Virus record (IMG/VR): IMGVR_UViG_3300032291_003007
Coordinates: 1 to 32,637 of that record
Source: a virus
Length of the DNA stretch: 32,637 bases
Direction: 5' to 3' (one strand)
Shown: positions 13,309 through 31,771 of the stretch, piece by piece
Layout: every line of letters starts with the position of its first letter
How positions within the stretch are numbered: position 1 is the first letter of the stretch
The notes under the pieces: model-generated
The model's input: only the letters and a program-made list of their open reading frames with translations
The model's database searches: none
What the model was told of the DNA's origin: nothing
Made by a program: the position numbers and the translations under genes

Positions 13309-13391
13309 AGTCAGGTGGCGGAATGGTAGACGCTCTGGGGACGGGACACCAGTTAGTAACCCGATTACAGGTTCAAATCCTGTCCTGACTA
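13309..13391 (+). tRNA. tRNA-like gene 3, Leu-type with broken anticodon loop
   Basis: Acceptor AGTCAGG/CCTGACT perfect, D arm GCG-GAATGGTAGA-CGC, T arm ACAGG-TTCAAAT-CCTGT, discriminator A; 83 nt, normal class II length. The stem at the anticodon position is CTGG/CCAG, enclosing ten bases (GGACGGGACA) instead of seven and without the invariant T33, so no anticodon can be assigned. Either a decayed tRNA-Leu or a tRNA-shaped RNA with another role. Confidence 0.6.
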
Positions 13392-13406
13392 CAAATAATA
13401 AAGAAT

Positions 13407-13616
13407 ATGAGAGAAATATTTGATGCAGAAATTTTAGATAGATCAATGTGGAATATTTACCAAACTATGAAAGATGACAACTTTCAATTTGATGGATACT
13501 CAATTGAAGATAAAAGTATGATGATAAACTCTATACTACCATATTTTGAAAAGATTGAAGAATATGAGATTTGTCAAGAATTAAAAAACCAAATTACACC
13601 AGGTAATATCTCATAG
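13407..13616 (+). CDS. small helical protein, 69 aa
   Basis: Paralogue of 8978-9187: shared opening I-L-D, the middle Y-x-Y and the core YFEKIEEYEICQELKNQ. It lies 15 bases after a tRNA-like gene, as its paralogue does. The last codons (ITPGNIS and TAG) are already inside cassette copy 3, so the two elements share sequence. Function unknown. Confidence 0.55.
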   Translation: MREIFDAEILDRSMWNIYQTMKDDNFQFDGYSIEDKSMMINSILPYFEKIEEYEICQELKNQITPGNIS

Positions 13617-13676
13617 GGGTTTACCCCCATTTTAACTAAAAATACTTTTCAAATCAAAATAAATTATTTAAGTTTG
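13594..13676 (+). promoter_or_regulatory. hairpin-promoter cassette, copy 3
   Basis: TTACACC, then TCATAGGGG-TTTA-CCCCC (palindrome 13616-13627), CTTTTCAAATCAAAAT and TAAGTTTG (13669-13676). The first G of the palindrome is the last base of the upstream stop codon. It drives the genes starting at 13702. Confidence 0.65.
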
Positions 13677-13701
13677 TATAAGAAATTAAAAAACAAATAA
13701 A

Positions 13702-13926
13702 ATGAAAACAGCAGTAGAAGAATTTTTAAATGCAATTAAAGACCAAATTCCATTAAGCAATGAGCATTTGGAAATGATAGAATCTTATGCATTGCAATGT
13801 AAAGAAATGGAGAAAGAAAATACAATAAATTTTGCTATACAATATATGTTTGGTAGAACAGATATTGGTTCAAATTTAAGAAATGATTTTATCCAAAAAT
13901 ATAACGAAACCTTTAAATCAGAATAG
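13702..13926 (+). CDS. hypothetical phage protein, 74 aa
   Basis: Sequence VEEFLNAIKDQIPLSNEHLEMIESYALQCKEMEKEN resembles a common small phage protein class with a C-terminal NDFIQKYNETFKSE tail. Helical, acidic. First gene behind cassette copy 3, with a 25-base leader. Confidence 0.65.
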   Translation: MKTAVEEFLNAIKDQIPLSNEHLEMIESYALQCKEMEKENTINFAIQYMFGRTDIGSNLRNDFIQKYNETFKSE

Positions 13927-13927
13927 T

Positions 13928-14089
13928 ATGAAAGCAATAATGTATTCATTTTGGGTAAGAACAATACTATTTATAATTACTTTTTACTTTGTATGGACAA
14001 ATTGGTCATTTTTAACTATGATAATTTGGATGTTATTTATGGCTTTTTACATGAAAAAAGCTTTTACTTATAAAAATAAATCAGAATAG
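13928..14089 (+). CDS. small two-span membrane protein, 53 aa
   Basis: Start set at ATG 13928, one base after the previous stop. Two hydrophobic segments, residues 5-24 (MYSFWVRTILFIITFYFVW) and 27-42 (SFLTMIIWMLFMAFYM), are joined by a short turn; the tail KKAFTYKNKSE is basic. Topology fits a hairpin membrane protein. Role unknown. Confidence 0.6.
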   Translation: MKAIMYSFWVRTILFIITFYFVWTNWSFLTMIIWMLFMAFYMKKAFTYKNKSE

Positions 14090-14090
14090 A

Positions 14091-14405
14091 ATGACAGGAA
14101 AATACCTAATAACAACAGAAAAATACTTTACTGCACCAGATGGATTATCCTATCAAGCGGTTTGGGGTGATGTTAAAATCGTGGAGGACGCAATCCTTGG
14201 AGTTAAAACCAACAGGAATAGTGCCAACTGGTATGCGGTTGTTGGTGGAAATGGTAAAGAAATTATAATTGCGGGATGTCAGATCTTTTATGCGATTAAA
14301 TGTGAAGAGAAACCAAACACCGGTAGAGTAATGGAATGGCACAGTTCAGACAACGGAAGTGTTGTTGAGAATGAAAGACCAACTAAAATTTATATTGCCC
14401 AATAA
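14091..14405 (+). CDS. conserved phage hypothetical protein, 104 aa
   Basis: TEKYFTAPDGLSYQAVWGDVKIV, LGVKTNRNSANWYAVVG and AGCQIFYAIKCEEKP form a beta-rich pattern shared by many Bacteroidetes phage hypotheticals (from memory). No catalytic residues suggested. Starts one base after the previous stop. Confidence 0.7.
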   Translation: MTGKYLITTEKYFTAPDGLSYQAVWGDVKIVEDAILGVKTNRNSANWYAVVGGNGKEIIIAGCQIFYAIKCEEKPNTGRVMEWHSSDNGSVVENERPTKIYIAQ

Positions 14406-14406
14406 T

Positions 14407-14706
14407 ATGATACACCAAATAAAAACCTTTGATGATAAGACCCTTGTGGAACTGAAAGTTATTGATCACGGAACAGAATTTTATACTTCAAACGAACTTT
14501 CCGTTCTTAAACAAAAAATTACGGACGCAAACCGAGAACACGGTTTACAATTTGAGAATGACTTCTCATATTTAAATGGAATTAAAGAAGAAACAATAAA
14601 CGATAAATTCACTGAAATAAGTGAAAAATGGGGATTAACCTACGAAAAAATATTGAAATATGAAAAACACAAAAGAAAACGCGGAACAATTTATTCACGA
14701 ATATGA
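14407..14706 (+). CDS. hypothetical protein, 99 aa
   Basis: Start set at ATG 14407, just after the previous stop. Beta strands at 1-25 are followed by helices; residues 82-93 are EKWGLTYEKILK. The DNA for INDKFTEISEKWG (14602-14633) is repeated almost exactly inside the next gene (14981-15012). Its end overlaps the next gene by 47 bases, an unusually long overlap. Confidence 0.6.
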   Translation: MIHQIKTFDDKTLVELKVIDHGTEFYTSNELSVLKQKITDANREHGLQFENDFSYLNGIKEETINDKFTEISEKWGLTYEKILKYEKHKRKRGTIYSRI

Positions 14707-15271
14707 AAAGACACATTCAGCAGATTGGTTGAGTGGAACACCAGATTTAGTGAGGTTTTTGAATGAATATGGTTCTAAGATAGAAAACGAATTTATACCA
14801 AATGATGCACATTCTTTAGAAGTATTTAGTATCAAAAATTGTGAAGAATCACCAACAGGAAAACAAGCGTTCATTGGTTTTAAACTTGATAATGGGAACT
14901 TTCATTTTATTGGTGTACCATATACCGAACCTATTAAAGTTAAACAAAATTGGTTTTCTAAAATTTTTAAAAGCTTTAAGGATAAATTCACTGAAATAAG
15001 TAAAAGATGGGGACCACAAAAATATTTAAATATGAAATATAGAAAAAAACCGGTTGAGATTGAAGCAATCCAACTAACAGAAGAAAATGTTGATAAGATA
15101 ATGGAATTTTGTGGTGATAAAATTAAATCACATCCATTTACAGGTGTAGTTATTGAAACACTTGAAGGCAATATGACGGCTGACAAAGGTGATTACATTA
15201 TCAAAGGGGTTAAAGGTGAGTTTTATCCGTGTAAACCAGATATTTTTGAATTAACCTACGAAAAAGTATAA
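14660..15271 (+). CDS. fusion protein with C-terminal PGDYG-like domain, 203 aa
   Basis: Residues 1-110 are an unrecognised domain containing TGKQAFIGFKLDNGNFHFIGVPYTEP. From M125 onward, MKYRKKPVEIEAIQL ... ETLEGNMTADKGDYIIKGVKGEFYPCKPDIFELTYE is the classic stand-alone phage PGDYG-type protein, which normally begins at that Met. The join (110-124) falls in the repeated DKFTEIS..WG segment, pointing to fusion by recombination. It is also possible that the C-terminal domain is translated separately from ATG 15032. Confidence 0.75.
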   Translation: MKNTKENAEQFIHEYEKTHSADWLSGTPDLVRFLNEYGSKIENEFIPNDAHSLEVFSIKNCEESPTGKQAFIGFKLDNGNFHFIGVPYTEPIKVKQNWFSKIFKSFKDKFTEISKRWGPQKYLNMKYRKKPVEIEAIQLTEENVDKIMEFCGDKIKSHPFTGVVIETLEGNMTADKGDYIIKGVKGEFYPCKPDIFELTYEKV

Positions 15272-15273
15272 CT

Positions 15274-15486
15274 ATGAAAGAACTATCAAATAGACATATG
15301 AACGCACTTAAAAACACATTTCCTGACCTTGAAATTCAAAAGGAAGTTGAACCACAAACACAACTTGATGAACTAAACGACTATTTGAGGTTATTAGCAG
15401 ATATGGATAATATTACTATTAATAGAAAACTTTTTCTTCTTGAGGGATATATGAATAAAGTTATAAGTCAATTAAAAAATAAATAA
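15274..15486 (+). CDS. hypothetical protein, 70 aa
   Basis: Helical, acidic protein: NALKNTFPDLEIQKEVEPQTQLDELNDYLRLLADM ... LLEGYMNKVISQLKNK. Likely a small coiled-coil type. Two bases after the previous stop; no known family. Confidence 0.6.
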   Translation: MKELSNRHMNALKNTFPDLEIQKEVEPQTQLDELNDYLRLLADMDNITINRKLFLLEGYMNKVISQLKNK

Positions 15487-15487
15487 A

Positions 15488-15805
15488 ATGAAACTAGGAG
15501 AATTTATAGAAAAATTTAGTCATAATAATTTGATTAGATTACATTACAAGGAAAAAGGTGGAAACCGACTTGTTTTAGAAGATTGGAATGATGTATCAAT
15601 GGACTGGGAAGTTAATAAAGCAAAAGGAAATTTTAGACATTATGTAAACAATGAAGTTTTGGGGTTAGCATCAATACTTCTTTATGGTACCAAAGGTCAA
15701 TCCTACCCGGAAGCAATTAACATCGTAATTGAAGAATTGGAAAATCAACCTATGATTGATGAGTTTGAAGATGATATAACTAATATGTGTGAATCAGTAG
15801 AATAA
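15488..15805 (+). CDS. conserved phage hypothetical protein, 105 aa
   Basis: Opening LGEFIEKFSHNNLIRLHYKEKGG and LVLEDWNDVSMDWEV are recognisable as a recurring Bacteroidetes phage family (from memory), ending with an acidic helix. It lies one base after the previous gene. Function unknown. Confidence 0.65.
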   Translation: MKLGEFIEKFSHNNLIRLHYKEKGGNRLVLEDWNDVSMDWEVNKAKGNFRHYVNNEVLGLASILLYGTKGQSYPEAINIVIEELENQPMIDEFEDDITNMCESVE

Positions 15806-15806
15806 T

Positions 15807-15890
15807 ATGAAAAAACTATTCAAATTTTTAGGTTGGTTAGAACAACAAAGAATAAACGCGATGATTCACACCGGTAAAGGATTTTATTAA
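15807..15890 (+). CDS. tiny protein, 27 aa
   Basis: MKKLFKFLGWLEQQRINAMIH then TGKGFY and stop. One amphipathic helix with a basic N-terminus. One base after the previous stop and one before the next start, so the spacing supports translation. The ending TGKGFY is typical of tiny phage ORFs. Confidence 0.5.
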   Translation: MKKLFKFLGWLEQQRINAMIHTGKGFY

Positions 15891-15891
15891 T

Positions 15892-16263
15892 ATGTCAAAA
15901 CCAGATAACGTTTCAGATAACCCAGGATTATTACCGTATGCCTCAAATATTGGAGCACCGGCAATAAGAATTGAAAACATACAAAGTTGGAAAGAAACAA
16001 GAGTTCAAAATGTTAACAAACAATTTGAAGATAAGTTTATTAGTTTAAAAAAAGAATATGAAAAACTTGTTGATGAATATAAATGGAATGAACTTGTTTA
16101 TATGTCAAATTTTAACTTTGAACCGGTAATTGGAAAAACTTATCATCTTTATTATTCAAAAAATGAAACTATATTTTTATCACTAATTGAACCCAGTGAA
16201 TGGAAAAAAGAACACATTGGATCCTTTAAGTATAATCACGATAATAAATGGGTTAAAATATAA
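15892..16263 (+). CDS. DUF2452-like protein, 123 aa
   Basis: KPDNVSDNPGLLPYASNIGAP, IENIQSWKETRVQNVNKQFEDKF and the FEPVIGKTYHLYYSKN / FLSLIEPSEW strands match the DUF2452 family, recognised from memory. Family length is about 120-150 residues, so this copy is complete. Function unknown; common in marine phages and bacteria. Its stop overlaps the next ATG by one base (TAATG). Confidence 0.75.
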   Translation: MSKPDNVSDNPGLLPYASNIGAPAIRIENIQSWKETRVQNVNKQFEDKFISLKKEYEKLVDEYKWNELVYMSNFNFEPVIGKTYHLYYSKNETIFLSLIEPSEWKKEHIGSFKYNHDNKWVKI

Positions 16264-16895
16264 TGGCATATATAGAACACAATTTTTTTCCTTTAAAAGT
16301 TTTTGTAAGAAATGAATATTTCTATCAAGGAAAAAAAGGACACGGTGAATTAACCGAAGGTGTTATAATATCTGTAAGATGTATGCCAGGACAAGCAGCA
16401 CTTTTTCAAGTATTATTAAATAATGGTGTGATGAGAGATAAGTTACCTTGTCACGCACTACTAACGGATAATGAATTACCAGAACAAGACTTACCATTTC
16501 ATTATCTACAACTATGGAATTGTTTTTCCTATAACTTTACATTAATACATTTAAGTTATGTATATGACACACAAGTTGAGGTTTTTATGAAAGATAAAAA
16601 CTGGTATTCTGGAAGATATTATGCAACAATAAATTGGGGATCAAATGATTTAAATACAGATTTAACTTTGGCTGAAGACCCAATGGAACATAAATCACAC
16701 CACATAATTCTTTTGGATAATGGACAAATTGCACTCCAACCAAATAATAGAATTAAATGGTCCGAACCATCTTTTGTTACAAAACCATTTCCAGATAAAC
16801 CAGACTTTTTAGTTAACAAAGATTGGTTTAATTGTGAGGGACACGAAAAGTGGGCAACAGAAGATAGTGAAAGAATGTTTTATGATACGGAGTAA
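16263..16895 (+). CDS. conserved phage hypothetical protein, 210 aa
   Basis: Starts FFPLKVFVRNEYFYQGKKGHGELTEGVII, a beta-rich opening seen in phage hypotheticals with the pattern RCMPGQAALFQVLLNNGVMRDKLP. Rich in Trp, His and Phe. The second half has NTDLTLAEDPMEHKSHHIILLDNGQIALQPNNRI. No active-site motif recognised. Coupled to the DUF2452 gene by a one-base overlap. Confidence 0.65.
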   Translation: MAYIEHNFFPLKVFVRNEYFYQGKKGHGELTEGVIISVRCMPGQAALFQVLLNNGVMRDKLPCHALLTDNELPEQDLPFHYLQLWNCFSYNFTLIHLSYVYDTQVEVFMKDKNWYSGRYYATINWGSNDLNTDLTLAEDPMEHKSHHIILLDNGQIALQPNNRIKWSEPSFVTKPFPDKPDFLVNKDWFNCEGHEKWATEDSERMFYDTE

Positions 16896-19619: not shown

Positions 19620-20153
19620 ATGGAAAAGAATTTAACAGAAAAACTTTATGAAGAACTTAAAAAAAGAAATCTCTTTGAAGAAGAGGACGATGAAGATTTT
19701 GAAAAAGATGACGACACAAATGACGAAGACGTTGATGATGAGGATGAAAATGAAGAAGAAGAGGAAGATAGTGAAGATGTAGAATCAAACGATGATTTTT
19801 GTGAAATGGTTTGCAACATTCTACATTCGAGAAACCAAGCACACGTATTTCATCTTCAAACACAATCATTTGCTGAACATAAGGCATTGAATGATTACTA
19901 TGATGGAGTTGTTGATTTATTTGATGGGATTGTAGAGTCATACCAAGGTAAATACGGAATTATTAAAAACTTCAAGACATTTAAGATAGAACAATATAGG
20001 AATGGTAAAAAAACAATTTCTTATTTTGAAAGATTACTTGATATAATTGAAGAAAACAGAGATTCGGTTGATGACAGCTATATTCAAAATCAAATAGATA
20101 CCGTACAAGAATTGATTAACTCAACAATCTATAAATTAAGATTTCTTAAATGA
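19620..20153 (+). CDS. acidic-tailed ferritin/Dps-like helical protein
   Basis: 177 residues. Residues 19-58 are almost only Asp/Glu, giving a long disordered acidic arm. Residues 60-176 are helical: ILHSRNQAHVFHLQTQSFAEHKALNDYYDGVVDLFDGIVESYQ has the spaced H, H, E/H and D/E pattern of ferritin-like phage proteins (DUF5856 type, from memory). Canonical metal ligands cannot be confirmed. Possibly a structural or internal-head component, given the late-type motif and the leader-bearing neighbours. Its end overlaps the next start by four bases. Confidence 0.65.
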   Translation: MEKNLTEKLYEELKKRNLFEEEDDEDFEKDDDTNDEDVDDEDENEEEEEDSEDVESNDDFCEMVCNILHSRNQAHVFHLQTQSFAEHKALNDYYDGVVDLFDGIVESYQGKYGIIKNFKTFKIEQYRNGKKTISYFERLLDIIEENRDSVDDSYIQNQIDTVQELINSTIYKLRFLK

Positions 20154-20506
20154 AAATAGTTTTAAATGAAAACGAAAAGAATCAAATCTCCTCACAACAC
20201 GAGGAGATTGATTCTCGTTTATTTAATTTTTTAATTAGAAGAGTTAAAAAAGAAAAAAAAGATTTGGGTACTGATTGGCTTGATAATCAAAAATTAACTG
20301 TCACAGAATATACATTTGAAGGATTACCAGGTTTTGGTTGGAATAGTTACTCAACAAAAAAACAGATAGAAAATAGAATACTTGATATGTTAATTGAGGG
20401 TGATGTGATTGACTTTTGGCCTTATGAATTGGATGAAAGAGACCCAAGAAGGATTAAAATTGTAAAAACAGTTAGAAAATTTATAAATTTTATTTTGACA
20501 GATTAA
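20150..20506 (+). CDS. hypothetical protein with LNE leader, 118 aa
   Basis: Opens MKIVLNENEKNQI, resembling the MKxLITExQ openings of the genes at 28512 and 29178 and the internal ITESEQKNQL of the 619-residue protein; L-N-E at 5-7 could be a prohead-protease site. The rest is alpha/beta with FEGLPGFGWNSYSTKKQIENRILDMLI. Codons 8-23 fold into a long hairpin in the DNA/RNA (20171-20219). Function unknown. Confidence 0.6.
   Translation: MKIVLNENEKNQISSQHEEIDSRLFNFLIRRVKKEKKDLGTDWLDNQKLTVTEYTFEGLPGFGWNSYSTKKQIENRILDMLIEGDVIDFWPYELDERDPRRIKIVKTVRKFINFILTD
20171..20219 (+). other. long imperfect hairpin inside the start of a CDS
   Basis: AACGA-(AAA)-GAATCA-(A)-ATCTCCTC pairs with GAGGAGAT-TGATTC-TCGTT around the loop ACAACAC: 19 base pairs with two bulges on the 5' side. 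It begins 21 bases after the start codon. Confidence 0.8.
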
Positions 20507-20558: not shown

Positions 20559-20807
20559 ATGGGTACAAAAACAGGAAACAAAGGTCGTTACATTTGTAAA
20601 GTTGGTTATTTAGATGTTTATGCAAAAGACTCTCATAAACCAAAAAAAGAATCAAAGTATAAATTCATTATACCAGATGTTAAATCAACAATTTACAATG
20701 TTCTTCACGGTAAAAAATTAGTAAAAGGAAACTTTGCAACAAAAGATGAAGCAGTAAAAAATGCGATTGAATTATTAGGAGATAAAAGGATTAACTATTC
20801 ACTTTAA
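20559..20807 (+). CDS. hypothetical protein, 82 aa
   Basis: Basic small protein: GNKGRYICKVGYLDVYAKDSHKPKKESKYKFIIPDVK, then NFATKDEAVKNAIELLGDKRINYSL. Beta hairpin plus a helix. A monocistronic unit with its own promoter and a terminator 14 bases after its stop. Unknown function, probably well expressed. Confidence 0.65.
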   Translation: MGTKTGNKGRYICKVGYLDVYAKDSHKPKKESKYKFIIPDVKSTIYNVLHGKKLVKGNFATKDEAVKNAIELLGDKRINYSL

Positions 20808-20848: not shown

Positions 20849-21421
20849 TTAGTCAGCCCATTCCGATTCGACATCAAAAATATTAAGACCAAAGTCATAA
20901 CCTTTTCTTTGGACATATGCCTCAATTTCCCCCCTTAAATGATCAGTTATTTCAACCCACCACACATCTGAAAAATCATCACTTAACAATTCTTCATAAG
21001 TTTTCATACCATCTTCAGTTTCTAAATAACAATCGTTTATTTTAAAACCAAACTCAACGTCTAATTGTATTATCTCTCCAGAAAATTCAAGCCAAGGAAT
21101 ATATACCTCAAACCGGTCTTGACCAGTACCAATCCCAACACTCTTTAAATCTTTTTCGTCAGTACTCTCAATCGTTTTATGAAATAAAGTTTTAGCCTGT
21201 TCAAAACCATCACTAACACCATAATGTTCTTCCAAAAATTCAAAATACCACTTATCAATTAATTCAATGTATTGTGTAATTTTTTTTCTTCTTAAATCTT
21301 CATAAGGTATATGTGGTGTTAAACCAGATGAAACCTGTCTTTTAAAGGTTGTCATTATATACTTTTTAAGTGTGTTAACACTACTATCCTCTTTTAATAT
21401 TTGTCTAATTAAATCCTTCAT
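20849..21421 (-). CDS. leader-bearing module-A protein, 190 aa (candidate internal head protein)
   Basis: Starts MKDLIRQILKEDSS, an amphipathic leader ending in L-K-E. The remainder is related to two segments of the 619-residue neighbour: YIMTTFKRQ, LRRKKITQYIELIDKWYFEFLEEHYG, LKSVGIGTGQDRFEVYIPWLEFSGEI align with YFIKKWNKE, IKKLGLMKHFNKIRLGFIDYYEENIG and so on. No enzyme motif. By analogy with T4 internal proteins, the leader would target it to the prohead and be removed there (inference). A TATTTATA lies seven bases before the ATG, inside the end of the upstream gene. Confidence 0.65.
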   Translation of the reverse strand: MKDLIRQILKEDSSVNTLKKYIMTTFKRQVSSGLTPHIPYEDLRRKKITQYIELIDKWYFEFLEEHYGVSDGFEQAKTLFHKTIESTDEKDLKSVGIGTGQDRFEVYIPWLEFSGEIIQLDVEFGFKINDCYLETEDGMKTYEELLSDDFSDVWWVEITDHLRGEIEAYVQRKGYDFGLNIFDVESEWAD

Positions 21422-21427
21422 TACGTA

Positions 21428-21817
21428 TTATAAATATGAATATCCACCAAAAGAACGTTTAACTATTACATTGTAGGTTTTTTCAAAAATTTTACCAATC
21501 ATTTTACTATTTTCGTCAAGTAATCTTTTATCCGGAAAAATACGATATAATCTATTAGCAAAACTCGCTGTATATTCCAATGTGTTATTTTCGGTATCGT
21601 AAGTCATAACCAATTCTTCACCAATTTTATACCTAAATATAAGATTACCATCCGAATCAAAATGTAGTGCAGTATTATCTAATTTAAATCTTGGTATTAT
21701 GTTTTTAACAATAAAGTCGACTCTTTTATCCTCTGGTACATCCTTTGAAAAAAAGTTTTTGATTTTTTGTATCAAACTAGTTTCTTCTTTTAATATTTGT
21801 CTAATTAAATCTCTCAT
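21428..21817 (-). CDS. leader-bearing protein, 129 aa (candidate internal head protein)
   Basis: Start set at ATG 21817 so the protein opens MRDLIRQILKEETS, the same leader as its neighbours; a start two codons upstream would break this. Body: a helix KIKNFFSKDVPEDKRVDFIVK, then a beta-rich part (ALHFDSDGNLIFRYKIGEELVMTYD) and a C-terminal helix. Overlaps the stop of the 619-residue gene by one base (TAATG). Confidence 0.65.
   Translation of the reverse strand: MRDLIRQILKEETSLIQKIKNFFSKDVPEDKRVDFIVKNIIPRFKLDNTALHFDSDGNLIFRYKIGEELVMTYDTENNTLEYTASFANRLYRIFPDKRLLDENSKMIGKIFEKTYNVIVKRSFGGYSYL
21429..21436 (-). promoter_or_regulatory. TATTTATA motif, minus strand
   Basis: Plus-strand TATAAATA at 21429-21436 reads TATTTATA on the minus strand, seven bases before the ATG at 21421. 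May give the last gene of the operon its own transcript. Confidence 0.35.
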
Positions 21818-23676
21818 TACCACTTCACACTAATATAATCAATATCATTATTAATATTAAAACCAAATGATTCGATAAGTTCAAAAATAAAACTCTCAAC
21901 AATATCTTCAATAACTTCTTTAAATTCAAAATACTGTACAAAATCATCAAACGGATTTTCATCACTTGAAAAGTTTACAGTTTGACCTTCTTCTTGATTA
22001 TAAAATGAACCACTTAAAACTAAAAACTCAATGTCTAAATTTATATAATTTTTAACCTGATTTTCATTCTCTGAAAACTCAACTTTACTAAATCTTACTT
22101 TTATTTTACCATCATCAAAAGAATCTTTCATTTCTGTGATATCATTTTCATTAAAAGTATTATTTAATAAATAATTTTTAATTATCTCTGTTCTTCTATT
22201 TGTATCATTTGGATCAAGGTTCATAAATTGAGAATAATAAACTATAATCTCATTCATATATTTTGTTAAACCTAAACCTTTTATTTCTTTAAAATTAAGT
22301 TTTGGTAGTTGACCTTGTTCTTTTTGTTTTGTCCATTTTTTGAAGAAATAATCTTTTAGTTGATTTTTTTGTTCTGACTCTGTTATTTGTCTTGATTCGA
22401 TTAAAGTATCACTACTATCAATTTTACCCATCATATCTTGACTTTCATCATAAACATAACCCATATCAGCTAAATGGTACCGGTCAAGTAACCAACCAAT
22501 TATTTTTCTTCTTGTTTCTTTTTCTGTAAAATGTCTTTCTAACATTGACCAAATTAGTTCATAACTTACAGCAGTTTCATTCATCTGTGTATCTAAACTA
22601 ACTATAATACTTCCATTATCATTTGCAAGATAAATAAATCTACCATCTTCAGATTTGTATTTTTTTAAATCATTGTATTTTGAAAGCCAGGCTTTTGCAA
22701 ATTTGTTTTTTGGTAACATTTTTGCTTCTGTTAATTTTTTAGGCTCTTTTAATAATCCGTAATCTTCATCGTCACCAGGTTCAAAAAAACCAATACGGTC
22801 ATCTTTTTCAAAATACATAAATTCAGGTGGAGGTAATGTAAAACCTAAGTTCTTTAATTTATTCCAAACAAAACTTTCAACATATTTTTCTTTACCTAAA
22901 ATGTTTAATAACATCTCATATATTCTATTTTGTATTGTAATTGATTTAGAATGTGATAAAAATAAATAAATACCTTTTTTTGTTCCAAGAAATTCCATTT
23001 TATATCCTTTACTATGATATGGAATTAATTTTAAACTATTAAAAAAATTATTTGCAATATCTATTTTTTTATTATCAACACTTTCATTTAATGAATTTTT
23101 GTTCTTATACATATTAACAACAAGATCCAAGTCATCCAAATTAAATCCATATGAAAGAAGTTTCTTTTCTATAAAAAAAGTAATTAAGTCCTCAACCTCA
23201 TATTCAACATCATTCCAGTACTTGTGTTCTTCAGCGTTCTTTATATCGGTTAAATCAAAAGTTTCACCATCGTGTGTTACAGTACCTTCTTTAATTCTTG
23301 CGTATGGTTTTATCATACCAAAACTTCCCTTAATTTTTATTCCACCATAAACTAATATATCTTCAATATCAAATTTAAAATCATATCCACCAACATCAAT
23401 TCCTAATTTTTTAATATCATCGGTTGTAAAAGTAGTTTCTGTTAATTCTTTTAAGATATCCTCAAATGGGTCACCAATATTTTCTTCATAATAATCAATA
23501 AAACCTAATCTGATTTTATTAAAGTGTTTCATAAGACCAAGTTTTTTAATTTCACCCGGATTAAATGTTGGTTTACCATCACTATTCTTTTCTTTATTCC
23601 ATTTTTTTATGAAATAAGATAATAACTTATCATCACCGGATTCTTCCTGTAATACTTGTCTAATAATGTCGCGCAT
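21817..23676 (-). CDS. 619-aa modular protein with leader and repeated domains (candidate polyprotein)
   Basis: Leader MRDIIRQVLQEES at 1-13. Module A1 (about 14-190) and module A2 (about 437-619) are related: LLSYFIKKWNKEK/GEIKKLGLMKHFNKI against LKDYFFKKWTKQK/KEIKGLGLTKYMNEI. Between them lie two B modules (about 200-310 and 320-425) that look weakly alike (FFNSLK ... IYLFLS ... YEMLLNIL; WLSKYN ... FIYLAN ... WSMLERHF). LNE|S (196-199), LTE|A (315-318), LIE|S (425-428) and ITE|S (431-434) sit at the module borders and fit the T4 prohead-protease pattern (L/I)xE|(A/S/G). Suggested to be cut into internal head proteins; a plain multidomain protein is the alternative. Confidence 0.7.
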   Translation of the reverse strand: MRDIIRQVLQEESGDDKLLSYFIKKWNKEKNSDGKPTFNPGEIKKLGLMKHFNKIRLGFIDYYEENIGDPFEDILKELTETTFTTDDIKKLGIDVGGYDFKFDIEDILVYGGIKIKGSFGMIKPYARIKEGTVTHDGETFDLTDIKNAEEHKYWNDVEYEVEDLITFFIEKKLLSYGFNLDDLDLVVNMYKNKNSLNESVDNKKIDIANNFFNSLKLIPYHSKGYKMEFLGTKKGIYLFLSHSKSITIQNRIYEMLLNILGKEKYVESFVWNKLKNLGFTLPPPEFMYFEKDDRIGFFEPGDDEDYGLLKEPKKLTEAKMLPKNKFAKAWLSKYNDLKKYKSEDGRFIYLANDNGSIIVSLDTQMNETAVSYELIWSMLERHFTEKETRRKIIGWLLDRYHLADMGYVYDESQDMMGKIDSSDTLIESRQITESEQKNQLKDYFFKKWTKQKEQGQLPKLNFKEIKGLGLTKYMNEIIVYYSQFMNLDPNDTNRRTEIIKNYLLNNTFNENDITEMKDSFDDGKIKVRFSKVEFSENENQVKNYINLDIEFLVLSGSFYNQEEGQTVNFSSDENPFDDFVQYFEFKEVIEDIVESFIFELIESFGFNINNDIDYISVKW

Positions 23677-23681
23677 ATAAA

Positions 23682-23689
23682 AATAAATA
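23682..23689 (-). promoter_or_regulatory. TATTTATT motif, minus strand
   Basis: On the minus strand GTATTTATT lies five bases before the ATG at 23676, the only upstream signal seen for the three-gene minus operon; one mismatch to TATTTATA. Confidence 0.35.
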
Positions 23690-24556: not shown

Positions 24557-24907
24557 ATGCACCCTTTAATTCACGCAAAGAGTTCCGTAAAGAAATACGG
24601 AGGAAAAGTTGAAGACTATATTCACATTCATAATTGGTTTGATGAAACCAAGGCATATATCGGCCATTCAACACATAGATTGTTCCGCCATCATTCGGAG
24701 GGTATATTTGAATGTGAAAAAATATTTGGTTCCTCATTTCAAAACAGCGATGGAAAAACGGTTTATACTCGTTACGTCGGTGAAGATCATGTGAAGGAAG
24801 ACTGTTTTAATCACATTCCGTCAGCAAAAGAATGGATAAAAGCTCTACAAGATAAAGAAAAACCTATGTGGATGATGAGAACTTTGGATCTTAAATTTGA
24901 TGATTAA
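24557..24907 (+). CDS. DUF6915-like protein, 116 aa
   Basis: MHPLIHAKSSVKKYGGKVEDY, IHNWFDETKAYIGHSTHRLFRHHSEGIFECEKIFG and NSDGKTVYTRYVGEDHVKEDCFNHIPSAKEW follow the His-rich DUF6915 family seen in bacteria and phages (from memory). The many conserved His/Asp/Glu (H2, H6, H24, H37, H44, H45, E48) suggest a metal-binding helical fold; the reaction is unknown. Full length for the family. Confidence 0.8.
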   Translation: MHPLIHAKSSVKKYGGKVEDYIHIHNWFDETKAYIGHSTHRLFRHHSEGIFECEKIFGSSFQNSDGKTVYTRYVGEDHVKEDCFNHIPSAKEWIKALQDKEKPMWMMRTLDLKFDD

Positions 24908-26983: not shown

Positions 26984-28515
26984 TGAATAATCAATTAAAA
27001 ATATTTAACGGTTTAATGACATACCTAAGACCAATTGGTAGTGTTGGGACTAATTTTGATATGAATACCAATAAGGTTGAATATTTTGATGGTAGAATGT
27101 GGAGAGAAGATGGAAATGGGTTTAAACTAATTAAAATATTTAACGATTTTATTGTTGGTCTATGTAATGAAAATGGTAATGAAATGTGGGACTCAACAAA
27201 TAAAGAAGATACACTCTGGAATGTTGATGTAACAATTAATCCACAAGAAAAAGAAATTATTTTACAAACAAACTATTTTGAAACAACAAGAAATAAATAT
27301 AGACAAGATTGGGACTGGTGGGATATTCCAGCAATAGAAGTCGACTATATTTCAAATGTATTTAACAAAAATAAAAATGTAGAAAAGTTAATTTTTGATT
27401 GTAGTGTAAGATATAATGATTTTGATTTAACAAAATTTAGTTTACAATATAAAAATGGTAAAGTTATTAGTGGTGAAGTTAATGACCATTATATGTTACA
27501 ATCTGAAATTAAAAGATTATTAAAATTTGAAATACTTGGTGAAAATGATTATGATGATATTGCTGATGGTGATGGTTTTGATGCTGTTATTGTTTGTGGA
27601 AGAGAAGAAGAGACATCATATGTTAGCTTAGAAGTATATGATAGAGAATTTAGAAAAGGAAAAAGAATAATAATTGATGAAAGTTATTTTAAGGTAGAAA
27701 ATATTAATGAAAATCAAACTGAAATTGATTTTGATGATGAAAGTGATGATAAAATTTTTGATGAATATATTAACATTATAGAACCGGAGGATTCAGACCA
27801 AAGTAATTTAAATATTGAATCAATCCAAAAAAATACAAGATTTGGTAAGTTATTAAACACAATTCTATTTGAGTTATATGAAGATAACCTTGGTATGAAT
27901 GATGATGATAGCAAGTATGGTATTGTTGATATCTACCCATTAAATGAATTTACAAGTTGGTCAATCCTTAATTATTTTGGTGGTCACAAATTTGTAAAAC
28001 AAAGATTACTTGACCAATTCGGTAAGACAAATAGTGAACAAACACCAAAAGAATTTTATCGATGGTTAATTAATAATAAAGAGAGATTACTGAAGACTGG
28101 ACCAATATTAAAAGATTTAATTAGAACAAATTTCAACACATATAACAAAGGAACCATAACTGAAAAATATGTTATTGAAAAATTAAAAAATCTTAAATAC
28201 AATATTAAGTATTTTCCTCCAGGATCAAAAAAAGATAGAGAAGGTGGTGTTGATATCGAAATAAATGGTGTTCCATATCAAATTAAGGAATTAACCGGTG
28301 TTAGTAAAATGGAGGGTAAATTTTATTTAAAGACACCAATGCCAAAAAATTATTTAGGATTAGAAGTTAAAAAAATAATGTTGGTTGATGTTAGTAATGG
28401 TGATTTTGTCTCATTCCCAAATAAAAACTATGAAATCGACACAAAAGAAAATGCTTATGTTATAAATGAAGAATATAAAAAATCAATAAAAACCGGTAAT
28501 TTTAATAGGTTATGA
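26983..28515 (+). CDS. paralogue array member 4 fused to PD-(D/E)xK-like nuclease, 510 aa
   Basis: Residues 1-235 follow the array layout (MNNQLKIFNGLMTYLRP, VDVTINPQEKEIIL, IADGDGFDAVIVCG), with the GSGDSG loop lost. Residues 236-280 are an acidic linker. Residues 283-390 are an unassigned helical domain (YGIVDIYPLNEFTSWSILNYFGG). Residues 390-480 resemble a restriction-endonuclease fold: E394 (TEKYVIEKLKNL), D424 (GGVDIEING), Q433-I-K435 (YQIKELTG), then a strand LEVKKIMLVDV. The E...D...QxK order fits the PD-(D/E)xK superfamily. Suggested role: DNA or RNA cleavage guided by the N-terminal domains. Confidence 0.7.
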   Translation: MNNQLKIFNGLMTYLRPIGSVGTNFDMNTNKVEYFDGRMWREDGNGFKLIKIFNDFIVGLCNENGNEMWDSTNKEDTLWNVDVTINPQEKEIILQTNYFETTRNKYRQDWDWWDIPAIEVDYISNVFNKNKNVEKLIFDCSVRYNDFDLTKFSLQYKNGKVISGEVNDHYMLQSEIKRLLKFEILGENDYDDIADGDGFDAVIVCGREEETSYVSLEVYDREFRKGKRIIIDESYFKVENINENQTEIDFDDESDDKIFDEYINIIEPEDSDQSNLNIESIQKNTRFGKLLNTILFELYEDNLGMNDDDSKYGIVDIYPLNEFTSWSILNYFGGHKFVKQRLLDQFGKTNSEQTPKEFYRWLINNKERLLKTGPILKDLIRTNFNTYNKGTITEKYVIEKLKNLKYNIKYFPPGSKKDREGGVDIEINGVPYQIKELTGVSKMEGKFYLKTPMPKNYLGLEVKKIMLVDVSNGDFVSFPNKNYEIDTKENAYVINEEYKKSIKTGNFNRL

Positions 28516-28709
28516 AAATTCTAATAACAGAAAAACAGGCAGACAAATTATTTGGTGAAAAGATAAAATGTAAGTGTGGTCATTCTTGGGTTAAAGAAAA
28601 GAAAGACAAACATCCATATTTATGTCATATGTGTGGTTGGGACCAAATTTTGGAAAAATATAATGATAATGAGTTATTAAATTTCTGGAAAGGTGAATTA
28701 GATAAATAA
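28512..28709 (+). CDS. zinc-ribbon protein with ITE leader, 65 aa
   Basis: Opens MKILITEKQADKLFG, similar to MKYLITESQ of the gene at 29178. C20, C22, C38 and C41 (CKCGHSW ... CHMCGWD) form a small zinc ribbon. The C-terminus is helical and acidic. Overlaps the nuclease gene by four bases, so it closes the array operon and may act with it. Confidence 0.65.
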   Translation: MKILITEKQADKLFGEKIKCKCGHSWVKEKKDKHPYLCHMCGWDQILEKYNDNELLNFWKGELDK

Positions 28710-29177: not shown

Positions 29178-29564
29178 ATGAAATATCTTATAACTGAAAG
29201 TCAATTTGATTCTGTTACACAAAAATTAATAAATAATACATTAAATGAGTTTAGAGATGTTTGTGAAGTTCCAGATGCAGAAACTTTTCCTGATTGGTTA
29301 GGTTTTGATGATTGTAATACTTTAGAATCAATTGAAAAAATTGAAGTTATAAATACACAAACTCTAACACTAACAAAAGGGTTTACAAAACAATACCCAA
29401 CATTTGGTGTTGACATAAACATATATTTTTCAAATATCTTTGCAAGTCAAGACTTTAGTGATTTTCTTATTGCTTTAGCTTATAGAATAAAACAAAAATA
29501 TAAAATCACCCTAATGTTTAATGAAAATGAATCAATTAATACCAATACAAATAGACAGTGGTAA
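29178..29564 (+). CDS. hypothetical protein with ITE|S leader, 128 aa
   Basis: Opens MKYLITESQFDSVTQKLI; I5-T6-E7|S8 fits the (L/I)xE|S cleavage pattern. The body is alpha/beta: LESIEKIEVINTQTLTLTK, TFGVDINIYFSNIF, FSDFLIALAYRIKQKYKITLMF. No enzyme motif. Tail to tail with the next minus-strand gene (stops adjacent). Confidence 0.6.
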   Translation: MKYLITESQFDSVTQKLINNTLNEFRDVCEVPDAETFPDWLGFDDCNTLESIEKIEVINTQTLTLTKGFTKQYPTFGVDINIYFSNIFASQDFSDFLIALAYRIKQKYKITLMFNENESINTNTNRQW

Positions 29565-29938: not shown

Positions 29939-29946
29939 TATTTATA
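29939..29946 (+). promoter_or_regulatory. TATTTATA motif (candidate late promoter)
   Basis: Exact TATTTATA four bases before ATG 29951, divergent from the minus gene at 29903. Confidence 0.45.
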
Positions 29947-29950
29947 AAAT

Positions 29951-31771
29951 ATGAAAAATTTAATTAGGAAAATTTTAAAAGAACACACTTTAATATTAGA
30001 ATCTGGTATTAGAGGAATAAAAGAATTGGCTAAAAGATACCCAAAAGCAAAAATATATTTTCACCAGGATTTAGATGGTGTTACAACAGCACTTGGGATG
30101 AAAAATTATTTGGAACAACACGGAATTAAAGTTGTTGACGCCGAAATAATCCAATACGGAGCAAAAGAGTTTGCGATTAAAAAACCGGATGCTTCCGGAG
30201 ATGTTATGCCAGTCCTTGTGGATTTTGCTCACGGAAAACCAATGTTTGAAATCCATACAGATCACCACGACACACAAGCTGGGGTTGAACAAGGGACAGC
30301 AACAAACTTTAAAGCTTCAAGATCAAATGTTGAAACAATATCACAAGTTATGTCACCAAAAGAAATATTCCCTTCAGATGACATATTACTCATTTCAACT
30401 GTGGATTCCGCAAACTTTGTTGAACACGATATTACACCAGAAATGGTTATGAATTATTTATTCAAATACGATAAAGATAAAACATTACAAAGAAATAAGA
30501 TGTTAATGGGTCTTGTTGTTAATAAATTGTTATTAGCATACAAGAATAAACCTGGTTTTATGGAGGAAGTTGTTTTAAATGCACAACCATCTTTAATTAG
30601 TATTTTAAATAATATTAGAAAACAAGCGGTTGATAAAGGTTTTGCAACACCGGAAGATATGATACAAAATCAAGCAAAGTATCTTGAGAGTAGAAAGGAT
30701 CCGGAAGCTGTAAAAACAATTGGTAATATAATAACACAATATGGGTTTGGTGGTACATCAAGACCTGGTGCTTATGATAGATACACACCATTTAGAAATA
30801 ATCCAAATGCTGACTTTATTGTTACCGGCATGCCAATGGGAATGGTACAATCATCTTGTAATCCATTTAAAAAAGAAAGAGCACTTAAAGGTATTAATTT
30901 AGGTGATGTAAAAGATGAGGTATTAGAAAGAATGAGTCCGGAATTAAAAGGACTTAAAGTTAGTTTTGGTGATATTAAAAGGGTTTCAGAATTTGAAGCT
31001 GAATACTCATCAGTTGGTTTCACATTAAAAGATATGATAGCAATATATAGTTCGGTACCATCATTTAAAGTAAATGGTGGAGAAAGACTATTTGAAATAC
31101 TAGATGATATGTCAAAAAAATTATATAGAACATTATCACCAAAACAAAAAGAACTATTTGAAAAAATAACAGTAAATGGTCTTGATGTAATTAAAGCAAA
31201 CTCTGGTGGTCACAAGTGTATAACAAATATATCTGGTATTAATTTACTTTATAGAAAAAAAGGTGGTAATACTGAAACACAAAATATACCAAACGAATTA
31301 AAACCAATTGCAAATTATGAAGGATCCGATAGATTTGTAAATGATATAAAATCAAAGTTATTAAGATTTGGTACTTTATCTGACAAACAAAAAGAAGCCG
31401 CATTTAGACAAATTGCAAAAGAAGGTTTACCAACAACATATGAAGATAATGAAAAAACAGAAAAGACTTATGTTGATCTTGTAAAAGAAATACAAAATTT
31501 ATTTGTTGATGTTTTACAAGAAAAAATAAATCAAGAAGGTGAAACAAAAGAACTTGGCGAGGAATGGTCAGAAAAATATAAAAAAAGTATTGACTGTGAC
31601 AACCCAAAAGGTTTTTCACAAAAAGCACATTGTCAAGGTAGAAAAAAAAGAGATTTGGATGAATACGCCAGAACATTAAAAATGGCCAGAAGACAAGGAT
31701 CTGGTACCAGATTTTCGGAACCGGCAATAAAGTCAAACCCTATGAGATTTAGACCTTCAACAAGAAAGTAA
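29951..31771 (+). CDS. DHH-family phosphoesterase with capsid-targeting-like leader, 606 aa
   Basis: Leader MKNLIRKILKEHTLILESG matches the minus-operon leaders; I15-L16-E17|S18 fits a prohead-protease site. Residues 30-110 show the DHH superfamily motifs: FHQDLDGVTTA (D40, D42), VLVDFAH (D91) and IHTDHHDTQ (D104-H105-H106), with a further Asp in LLISTVDSANF near 150. Such enzymes cut short RNAs, ssDNA or linear and cyclic dinucleotides with Mn. A 'GGHKC' loop near residue 420 resembles the substrate-binding GGH of DHHA1-type domains. The C-terminus WSEKYKKSIDCDNPKGFSQKAHCQGRKKR is a separate basic Cys/His module. Phage roles: nanoRNA recycling, or destroying defence signals. Confidence 0.8.
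   Translation: MKNLIRKILKEHTLILESGIRGIKELAKRYPKAKIYFHQDLDGVTTALGMKNYLEQHGIKVVDAEIIQYGAKEFAIKKPDASGDVMPVLVDFAHGKPMFEIHTDHHDTQAGVEQGTATNFKASRSNVETISQVMSPKEIFPSDDILLISTVDSANFVEHDITPEMVMNYLFKYDKDKTLQRNKMLMGLVVNKLLLAYKNKPGFMEEVVLNAQPSLISILNNIRKQAVDKGFATPEDMIQNQAKYLESRKDPEAVKTIGNIITQYGFGGTSRPGAYDRYTPFRNNPNADFIVTGMPMGMVQSSCNPFKKERALKGINLGDVKDEVLERMSPELKGLKVSFGDIKRVSEFEAEYSSVGFTLKDMIAIYSSVPSFKVNGGERLFEILDDMSKKLYRTLSPKQKELFEKITVNGLDVIKANSGGHKCITNISGINLLYRKKGGNTETQNIPNELKPIANYEGSDRFVNDIKSKLLRFGTLSDKQKEAAFRQIAKEGLPTTYEDNEKTEKTYVDLVKEIQNLFVDVLQEKINQEGETKELGEEWSEKYKKSIDCDNPKGFSQKAHCQGRKKRDLDEYARTLKMARRQGSGTRFSEPAIKSNPMRFRPSTRK

Follow-up and report, generated by a model that had tools for sequence, protein, structure and literature searches.

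A short N-terminal leader shared by unrelated proteins of large T4-related phages is probably a capsid-targeting and cleavage signal

Several proteins encoded by a 32,637-base IMG/VR fragment of an uncultured phage (GC 29%), the whole of which is referred to here as the window, begin with short leaders that are selected as peptides, end in a protease motif, are spread over many unrelated bodies, are swapped on one and the same body, and co-occur in related phages with gp21, gp23 and scaffold-like genes. We interpret these leaders as a capsid-targeting and cleavage signal acting like the capsid-targeting sequence (CTS) of T4 in large T4-related phages, and we assign this reading a probability of roughly 0.8. 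Late in infection, the leader, which is 7 to 19 residues long and often an amphipathic helix (LIxxIL), would bind the scaffold core and, once bound, would bring the attached protein into the prohead. A gp21-type protease of family S77 would then cut after (L/I)xE, as at the gp23 propeptide, thereby releasing a mature protein that would remain with the DNA and could enter the next host. Core binding, cleavage, packaging and ejection are steps that we infer, and all of the computable tests able to overturn the capsid-targeting reading came out in its favour. We found no virion proteomics or cleavage data for leader-bearing phages in the papers searched. The original prediction that these proteins carry capsid-targeting leaders is partly supported by the peptide signal, the gp21 motif, and the gp21, gp23 and scaffold-like genes of relatives, with corrections of detail concerning gp67, the protease family and the paralogy of some bodies.

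Two types of leader are present in the window. Type A, with the consensus M(K/R)(D/N)(L/I)IR(Q/K)(I/V)L(K/Q)E, begins 4 of the 64 window ORFs, and type B, with the consensus MK(I/Y)(L/V)(I/L)(T/N)E, begins three; neither pattern occurs in any of the 121 stretches that follow internal methionines of window proteins. The type-B proteins, identified by pattern match, are all encoded on the plus strand and start with MKIVLNE↓N (20150..20506; orthologues in contigs G007 and G001), MKILITE↓K (28512..28709; orthologue in G001) and MKYLITE↓S (29178..29564; orthologues in G007 and G001), where the arrow, here and below, marks the predicted cut. In a motif-free test, N-terminal residues 2-12 were compared using BLOSUM62 and pairs with homologous bodies were dropped; the window yields 6 N-terminal pairs on non-homologous bodies compared to means of 0.1 when internal-Met stretches, and 0.05 when shuffled N-termini, serve as controls. 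The sharing of leaders among window proteins is real and above chance. The leader had initially been described as amphipathic, which is correct for type A, with a hydrophobic moment of 0.63-0.70 (top 3-8% of shuffles), and incorrect for type B, with a moment of 0.10. Because the type-B leader is not amphipathic, a docking mode shared by the two types is not obvious.

Three type-A proteins are encoded in a minus-strand cargo slot (20849..23676) that is inverted relative to its two conserved plus-strand neighbours (20559-20807 and 24557-24907), and the equivalents of this slot in G001 and G007 carry leader genes with partly other bodies. On the minus strand, a 190-aa protein (20849..21421) begins MKDLIRQILKED, with the leader MKDLIRQILKE↓ at 21389..21421; a 129-aa protein (21428..21817, with its ATG at 21817) begins MRDLIRQILKEE, with the leader MRDLIRQILKE↓ at 21785..21817; and a 619-aa protein of four modules (21817..23676) begins MRDIIRQVLQEE, with the leader MRDIIRQVLQE↓ at 23644..23676. 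The modules of the 619-aa protein span about residues 13-198, 199-317, 318-433 and 434-619, and sequence together with module boundaries suggests candidate internal cleavage sites, again on the minus strand, before module 2 (LNE↓S, 23083..23091), module 3 (LTE↓A, 22726..22734) and module 4 (LIE↓SRQITE↓S, 22378..22404). The ITES ahead of module 4 resembles a type-B leader.

The original prediction also held that the bodies behind these leaders differ. This is true of the 129-aa protein, the body of which has no relatives in the genomes searched, and of the DHH protein discussed below, but not of the 190-aa protein and modules 1 and 4 of the 619-aa protein, which are distant paralogues: module 4 matches module 1 with E=6e-6, the 190-aa protein matches module 4 with E=0.005, and all are connected via single-domain relatives in G013 and G001. 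Searching IMG/VR with the 619-aa protein gave two near relatives only. The 190-aa protein has an alpha/beta model in which the first 8 leader residues are the sole stretch with pLDDT below 50; Foldseek comparison of this model gave no match in the PDB (best E 0.4) and one unannotated viral model (A0A6J5L577, E 9e-6). A search of ten window proteins, the leader proteins among them, against Pfam and PHROGs gave only a sub-threshold DHH match for the leader set.

The 606-aa protein to which this match belongs (29951..31771, plus strand) begins MKNLIRKILKEH; this N-terminus and those of the three slot proteins are exactly as first read. Its leader, MKNLIRKILKEHTLILE↓ (29951..30001, plus strand), ends in (L/I)xE directly ahead of S/T-GIR. 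The DHH superfamily motifs HxDxDG, D, DHH and D, plus the GGH of the C-terminal domain (residues 419-421), are all present, and residues H38, D40, D42, D91, D104, H105, H106, D152 and G419-G420-H421 are invariant in an alignment of homologues. The Pfam DHH match has an E-value of 0.0036, below the cut-off, and a PDB sequence search with the body gave nothing significant; the structural model of the protein resembles the RecJ/DHH phosphodiesterase fold, with RecJ/DHH matches in Foldseek at E 3e-4. That this enzyme might act against nucleotide-signalling defences is a guess. A basic C-terminal module, EWSEKYKKSIDCDNPKGFSQKAHCQGRKKR (31562..31651, plus strand), is also seen in cyanophage proteins, for example MKSFKQFQE↓SWSNKYKKSIDC, and one cyanophage carrier is encoded near gp23.

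The DHH body exchanges its leader. Among its homologues, the leaders range from 7 to 19 residues and are of at least five kinds (MKRLIKE, MKIIITESQYKMLIKE, MKNLIRKILKEEGQRLLNE, MSTLLLEKKFLITE and MERIIKKILNEVILLNE), and the N-termini in the very large phages W01 and W02 (LR745206 and LR756502; 635 and 642 kb) are MISKYNQFINE↓E and MLRKYGQFINE↓E, respectively. Glu17 of the window leader is invariant in an alignment of 16 homologues, and all 38 distinct N-termini of the DHH family have a hydrophobic residue, any residue and Glu right ahead of the conserved body, so that (L/I)xE immediately precedes the body start in 38/38. The cleavage motif of T4 gp21 is L/I-x-E, and T4 leader residues 4, 7, 8 and 10 function in targeting and processing (PMC9026906). 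That the leader ends in the gp21 motif is borne out by these 38 N-termini and by the type-A leaders, in which a search fixing positions 1-9 only finds Glu at position 11 in 41 of 43 cases; one of the two exceptions has LLQE one residue later, and the other resembles a membrane segment. The motif is short and frequent, (L/I/V)xE being found at about 2% of positions, and many W01 leaders (MKYLKxFE) do not have an (L/I)xE end of their own. In type A, E or D often follows the predicted cut, versus A in T4, where IPII and IPIII begin MKTYQEFIAE↓A. Type-A and type-B leaders are dissimilar to this T4 sequence, the YxxFIxE spacing of which is common to the DHH starts of W01 and W02 and is not seen in the window. 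Given that the shared leader, its terminal motif and (in relatives) the gp23 site are present, that the protease is seen in relatives but not in the window, and that the leaders are unlike the T4 CTS in sequence, we regard the leaders as belonging to a functional variant of the T4 system rather than to a proven member of it.

Genes for the corresponding head proteins were sought in relatives. Among 18 contigs found via the leader alone, gp21 is present in 9 and a gp23 match in 10, these being raw counts from contigs that are not all independent. All six leader-bearing contigs larger than 230 kb have both gp21 (E 1e-22 to 1e-31) and gp23 (E 1e-62 to 1e-64). Besides a DHH homologue and three type-A leaders, G003 carries genes for gp21 (E=3e-29) and gp23 (6e-61) together with a scaffold-like gene, and one of its leader genes adjoins gp21; in G016, one leader gene is divergent from gp21 and another lies shortly downstream of gp23. 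Moreover, the gp23 propeptides of relatives end in LINE↓T, LISE↓T, LLNE↓A and LINE↓A. W01 and W02 have gp23 with weak gp21 matches (E 1e-4 and 2e-5), and the gp21-like protein of W01 appears to join protease and scaffold in one chain that contains many YSEYIAE-like repeats. The prohead protease for which the original prediction called is found in leader-bearing relatives and not in the window fragment, and it belongs to family S77 (Peptidase_S77) instead of S78. No head genes lie within the window fragment; gp21 and gp23 are also absent from the DHH-bearing contigs G001 (224 kb) and G002 (200 kb), which are possibly partial, and the PF03420 profile has no match in the window, G001, G002 and G004-G015, again possibly partial contigs.

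As judged by domain content, the cargo appears diverse, with a DHH phosphoesterase, a tRNA/polyA nucleotidyltransferase, peptidoglycan hydrolases and many domains of no known kind. Tagged bodies outside the window include PolyA_pol/CCA polymerase, GDSL with PG-binding and SLT domains, and VanY with PG-binding and M23 domains, together with proteins that read as HAD-like and have no Pfam match. These bodies bear on an alternative in which the leader does direct proteins to the core and to cleavage, yet the majority of the tagged proteins serve as core or maturation helpers, being degraded or retained in the head, with few entering the host. Small tagged proteins are located in part within the gp21-scaffold-gp23 cluster, as such helpers might be, and the T4 core proteins gp22 and gp67 are likewise gp21 substrates (PMC9026906). 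The same source corrects the list of T4 cargo in the original prediction, because gp67 belongs to the core and is cut into fragments rather than being cargo with a targeting peptide (PMC9026906). PolyA/CCA polymerase, DHH, GDSL, SLT, VanY and M23 bodies, however, have no evident role in building a head, and the turnover of cargo at a single genomic slot is as expected for host-directed proteins. We therefore consider it rather unlikely that most tagged proteins are helpers of this kind.

Some of the capsid-targeted cargo may be made as polyproteins, since (L/I/V)xE tends to be retained in fused proteins at the positions where leader and body meet in standalone relatives. In addition to the internal junctions of the 619-aa protein given above, G001:51079-52062 has NIQE↓S, G016:135696-138005 has KINE↓S plus NINE↓NVVRKKIN before PolyA_pol (the G003 counterpart being MKNLIRKIMKE↓EMVRKKIH), and G007:4462-6072 has an embedded leader-like stretch, HIKKVLRE↓EVNKK. 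(L/I/V)xE is seen at 14 of 25 internal junctions, some of them redundant, compared to 24% at random positions (binomial p=6e-4), and the excess is weaker when a wider interval is allowed (19 of 28 versus 43%). Because of this redundancy, and because the motif is common, the excess is suggestive only. Tentatively, and with somewhat less than even odds, these sequences might represent capsid-cargo polyproteins in which delivered domains are fused, one leader imports a string of effectors, and gp21 separates them inside the head. If so, polyproteins and tens of leader genes per genome would make the phage head a modular system for protein delivery.

Amphipathic helices at the N-terminus serve as localisation signals in general, and the high hydrophobic moment of the type-A leader would also suit a helix addressed to some other destination (membrane, tail or baseplate, or replication compartment), with (L/I)xE being coincidental. 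Such an explanation does not account for the invariant Glu with which unrelated leaders end at the body, for the matching site in gp23, or for the peptide being almost missing from bacterial genomes. Searching 84,980 bacterial and archaeal genomes gave one type-A match, which lies on a contig of 63,985 bases from a Prochlorococcus single-cell assembly; judging by its equal length, this contig is apparently identical to G031, where gp21 and gp23 are present. A different destination is, as a result, very improbable.

The extent to which the leader is spread was determined by searching IMG/VR with a DNA pattern of degenerate codons for M(K/R)(D/N)LIRxILKE(E/D). This search matched 43 stretches, giving 47 ORF starts in 20 body clusters that have no mutual similarity at E 1e-3; a control pattern composed of the same codons in scrambled order had no matches in IMG/VR. 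The motif-free test finds 74 non-homologous N-terminal pairs in G001 (about 1 in controls), 156 in G016 (about 3-5 in controls), a 318-kb contig in which 18 type-A leader proteins were counted, and 1366 pairs across 212 proteins in the 635-kb phage W01 (16-24 control pairs). Many unrelated bodies carry the leader, a mobile signal at the level of the peptide. Across 41 type-A leaders, L4 is encoded by 6 codons and R6 by 5, whereas the second positions of hydrophobic codons are fixed; third codon positions thus vary while the peptide is kept, which indicates selection on the peptide. This variation led us to drop the idea that the leader is a translated DNA or RNA element, such as a translation enhancer, a promoter overlap, or a homing or recombination site. 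Two window leaders do have a long identical DNA run in common, and a TATTTAT box often lies just 5' of the leader, but the box is not part of the leader and is found ahead of many untagged genes as well, and the third positions vary freely across the 41 genes, so that an element of this type is exceedingly improbable. Mere descent of one diverged family, with the N-terminus as its best-conserved part, has a negligible likelihood despite the paralogy described above for the 190-aa protein and two modules of the 619-aa protein, being refuted by the DHH, PolyA_pol and GDSL/SLT bodies, the lack of similarity between the 20 clusters, and the swapping of the DHH leader for unrelated ones.

The capsid-targeting reading places the window phage beside T4, in which the CTS of IPI, IPII, IPIII and the Alt propeptide, cut by gp21, is likewise a short N-terminal leader with an (L/I)xE end on unrelated proteins. 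Leader-bearing relatives share with T4 the S77 protease, gp23 and a scaffold-like gene, and homologues of window cargo in W01 and W02 share YxxFIxE. In contrast to T4, the leader sequences are different (LIRxILKE, MKIIITESQ and others) and of several types per genome, and tens of proteins are tagged instead of four or five, with enzymes and multi-module cargo among them; the packaging of these tagged proteins is predicted. To our knowledge, only a handful of T4 proteins carry capsid-targeting leaders. If our interpretation is correct, large environmental T4-like phages carry tens of tagged proteins, mostly of no known function, and would introduce into bacteria a large, changing repertoire of proteins, which would act on the host ahead of any phage gene expression. 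The leader would then be a marker, readable in sequence, with which delivered proteins encoded by unannotated genes could be listed for testing, possibly including those for counter-defence and cell-wall entry, and leaders of this type would provide naturally occurring tags by which proteins could be loaded into phage heads.

Other large phages offer partial parallels. The head ejection proteins of phiKZ and SPN3US are numerous inner-head proteins of large phages, some of which are processed by a gp21-like protease, and the SPN3US paralogues gp53 and gp54 have an identical 15-residue N-terminus (PMC5694885). The propeptides in these phages, however, are mostly longer than 100 residues, and no short tag is repeated over many unrelated bodies. 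The bS21 Bacteroidetes phages (up to 331 kbp) are also large and, according to the available part of the source, have a block of prohead protease, scaffold, portal, MCP and terminase genes (PMC9723584); that part makes no mention of leaders or capsid targeting, and these phages are possible relatives of G016 and G019. The cultured Flavobacterium phage vB_FspM_immuto_2-6A (NC_055915) has gp21, gp23 and N-termini common to unrelated proteins, and it has one small cargo body in common with G016 (E=4e-28). Its leaders are mostly of other types, namely MKKQILSEQFRRMQKLAGIITE↓S, DLKKFLVENKLTxNSxxLxE and MKKSQLRxIIKEA.

A TATTTAT box lies within 50 bases upstream of 28 of the 56 genes whose products carry the short shared N-terminal leader, compared to 103 of 543 other genes (p = 9e-7), and the distance from the box to the ATG of the leader gene is often a few to about 15 bases. 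In the window, such boxes are found at 29939-29945 (+ strand), upstream of the gene for the DHH protein, and at 23683-23689 (- strand), upstream of that for the 619-residue protein. Leader genes of the phage contigs G001, G007, G011 and G016 also have an upstream box, as does the gp21 prohead protease gene of G016. The box is perhaps a late promoter yielding leaderless or very short 5' ends. ARAGORN also predicts one tRNA-like gene in the window (13309-13392), whose anticodon is undetermined (cggg).

Type-B leaders (in the window, MK(I/Y)(L/V)(I/L)(T/N)E) are present on multi-domain peptidoglycan-degrading enzymes in G007 (13446-14972 and 15203-16741) and G013 (34169-35638), the domain sets being GDSL+PG-binding+SLT and VanY+PG-binding+M23, which suggests that the phage head delivers cell-wall enzymes.

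Across the whole of LR745206.1 (634,780 bp), which encodes 895 proteins, 212 share their N-terminus with at least one other protein that has a non-homologous body, possibly the largest set of tagged proteins in this analysis. The most frequent leader, MK(Y/H)LKxF(N/E)(E/S), has 47 strict cases versus 1 at internal methionines. At 198546-200669 (+ strand), the same record encodes a protein in which a protease resembling gp21 is apparently fused to an acidic scaffold with many YSEYIAE-type repeats, each similar to the T4 capsid-targeting sequence and to the gp21 site.

The T4-like phage contig QCKH01000009.1 (63,985 bp; apparently the same as G031), with type-A leaders, gp21 and the major capsid protein gp23, is contained in the Prochlorococcus single-cell assembly AG-409-L21, and this phage was perhaps co-sorted with that cell.
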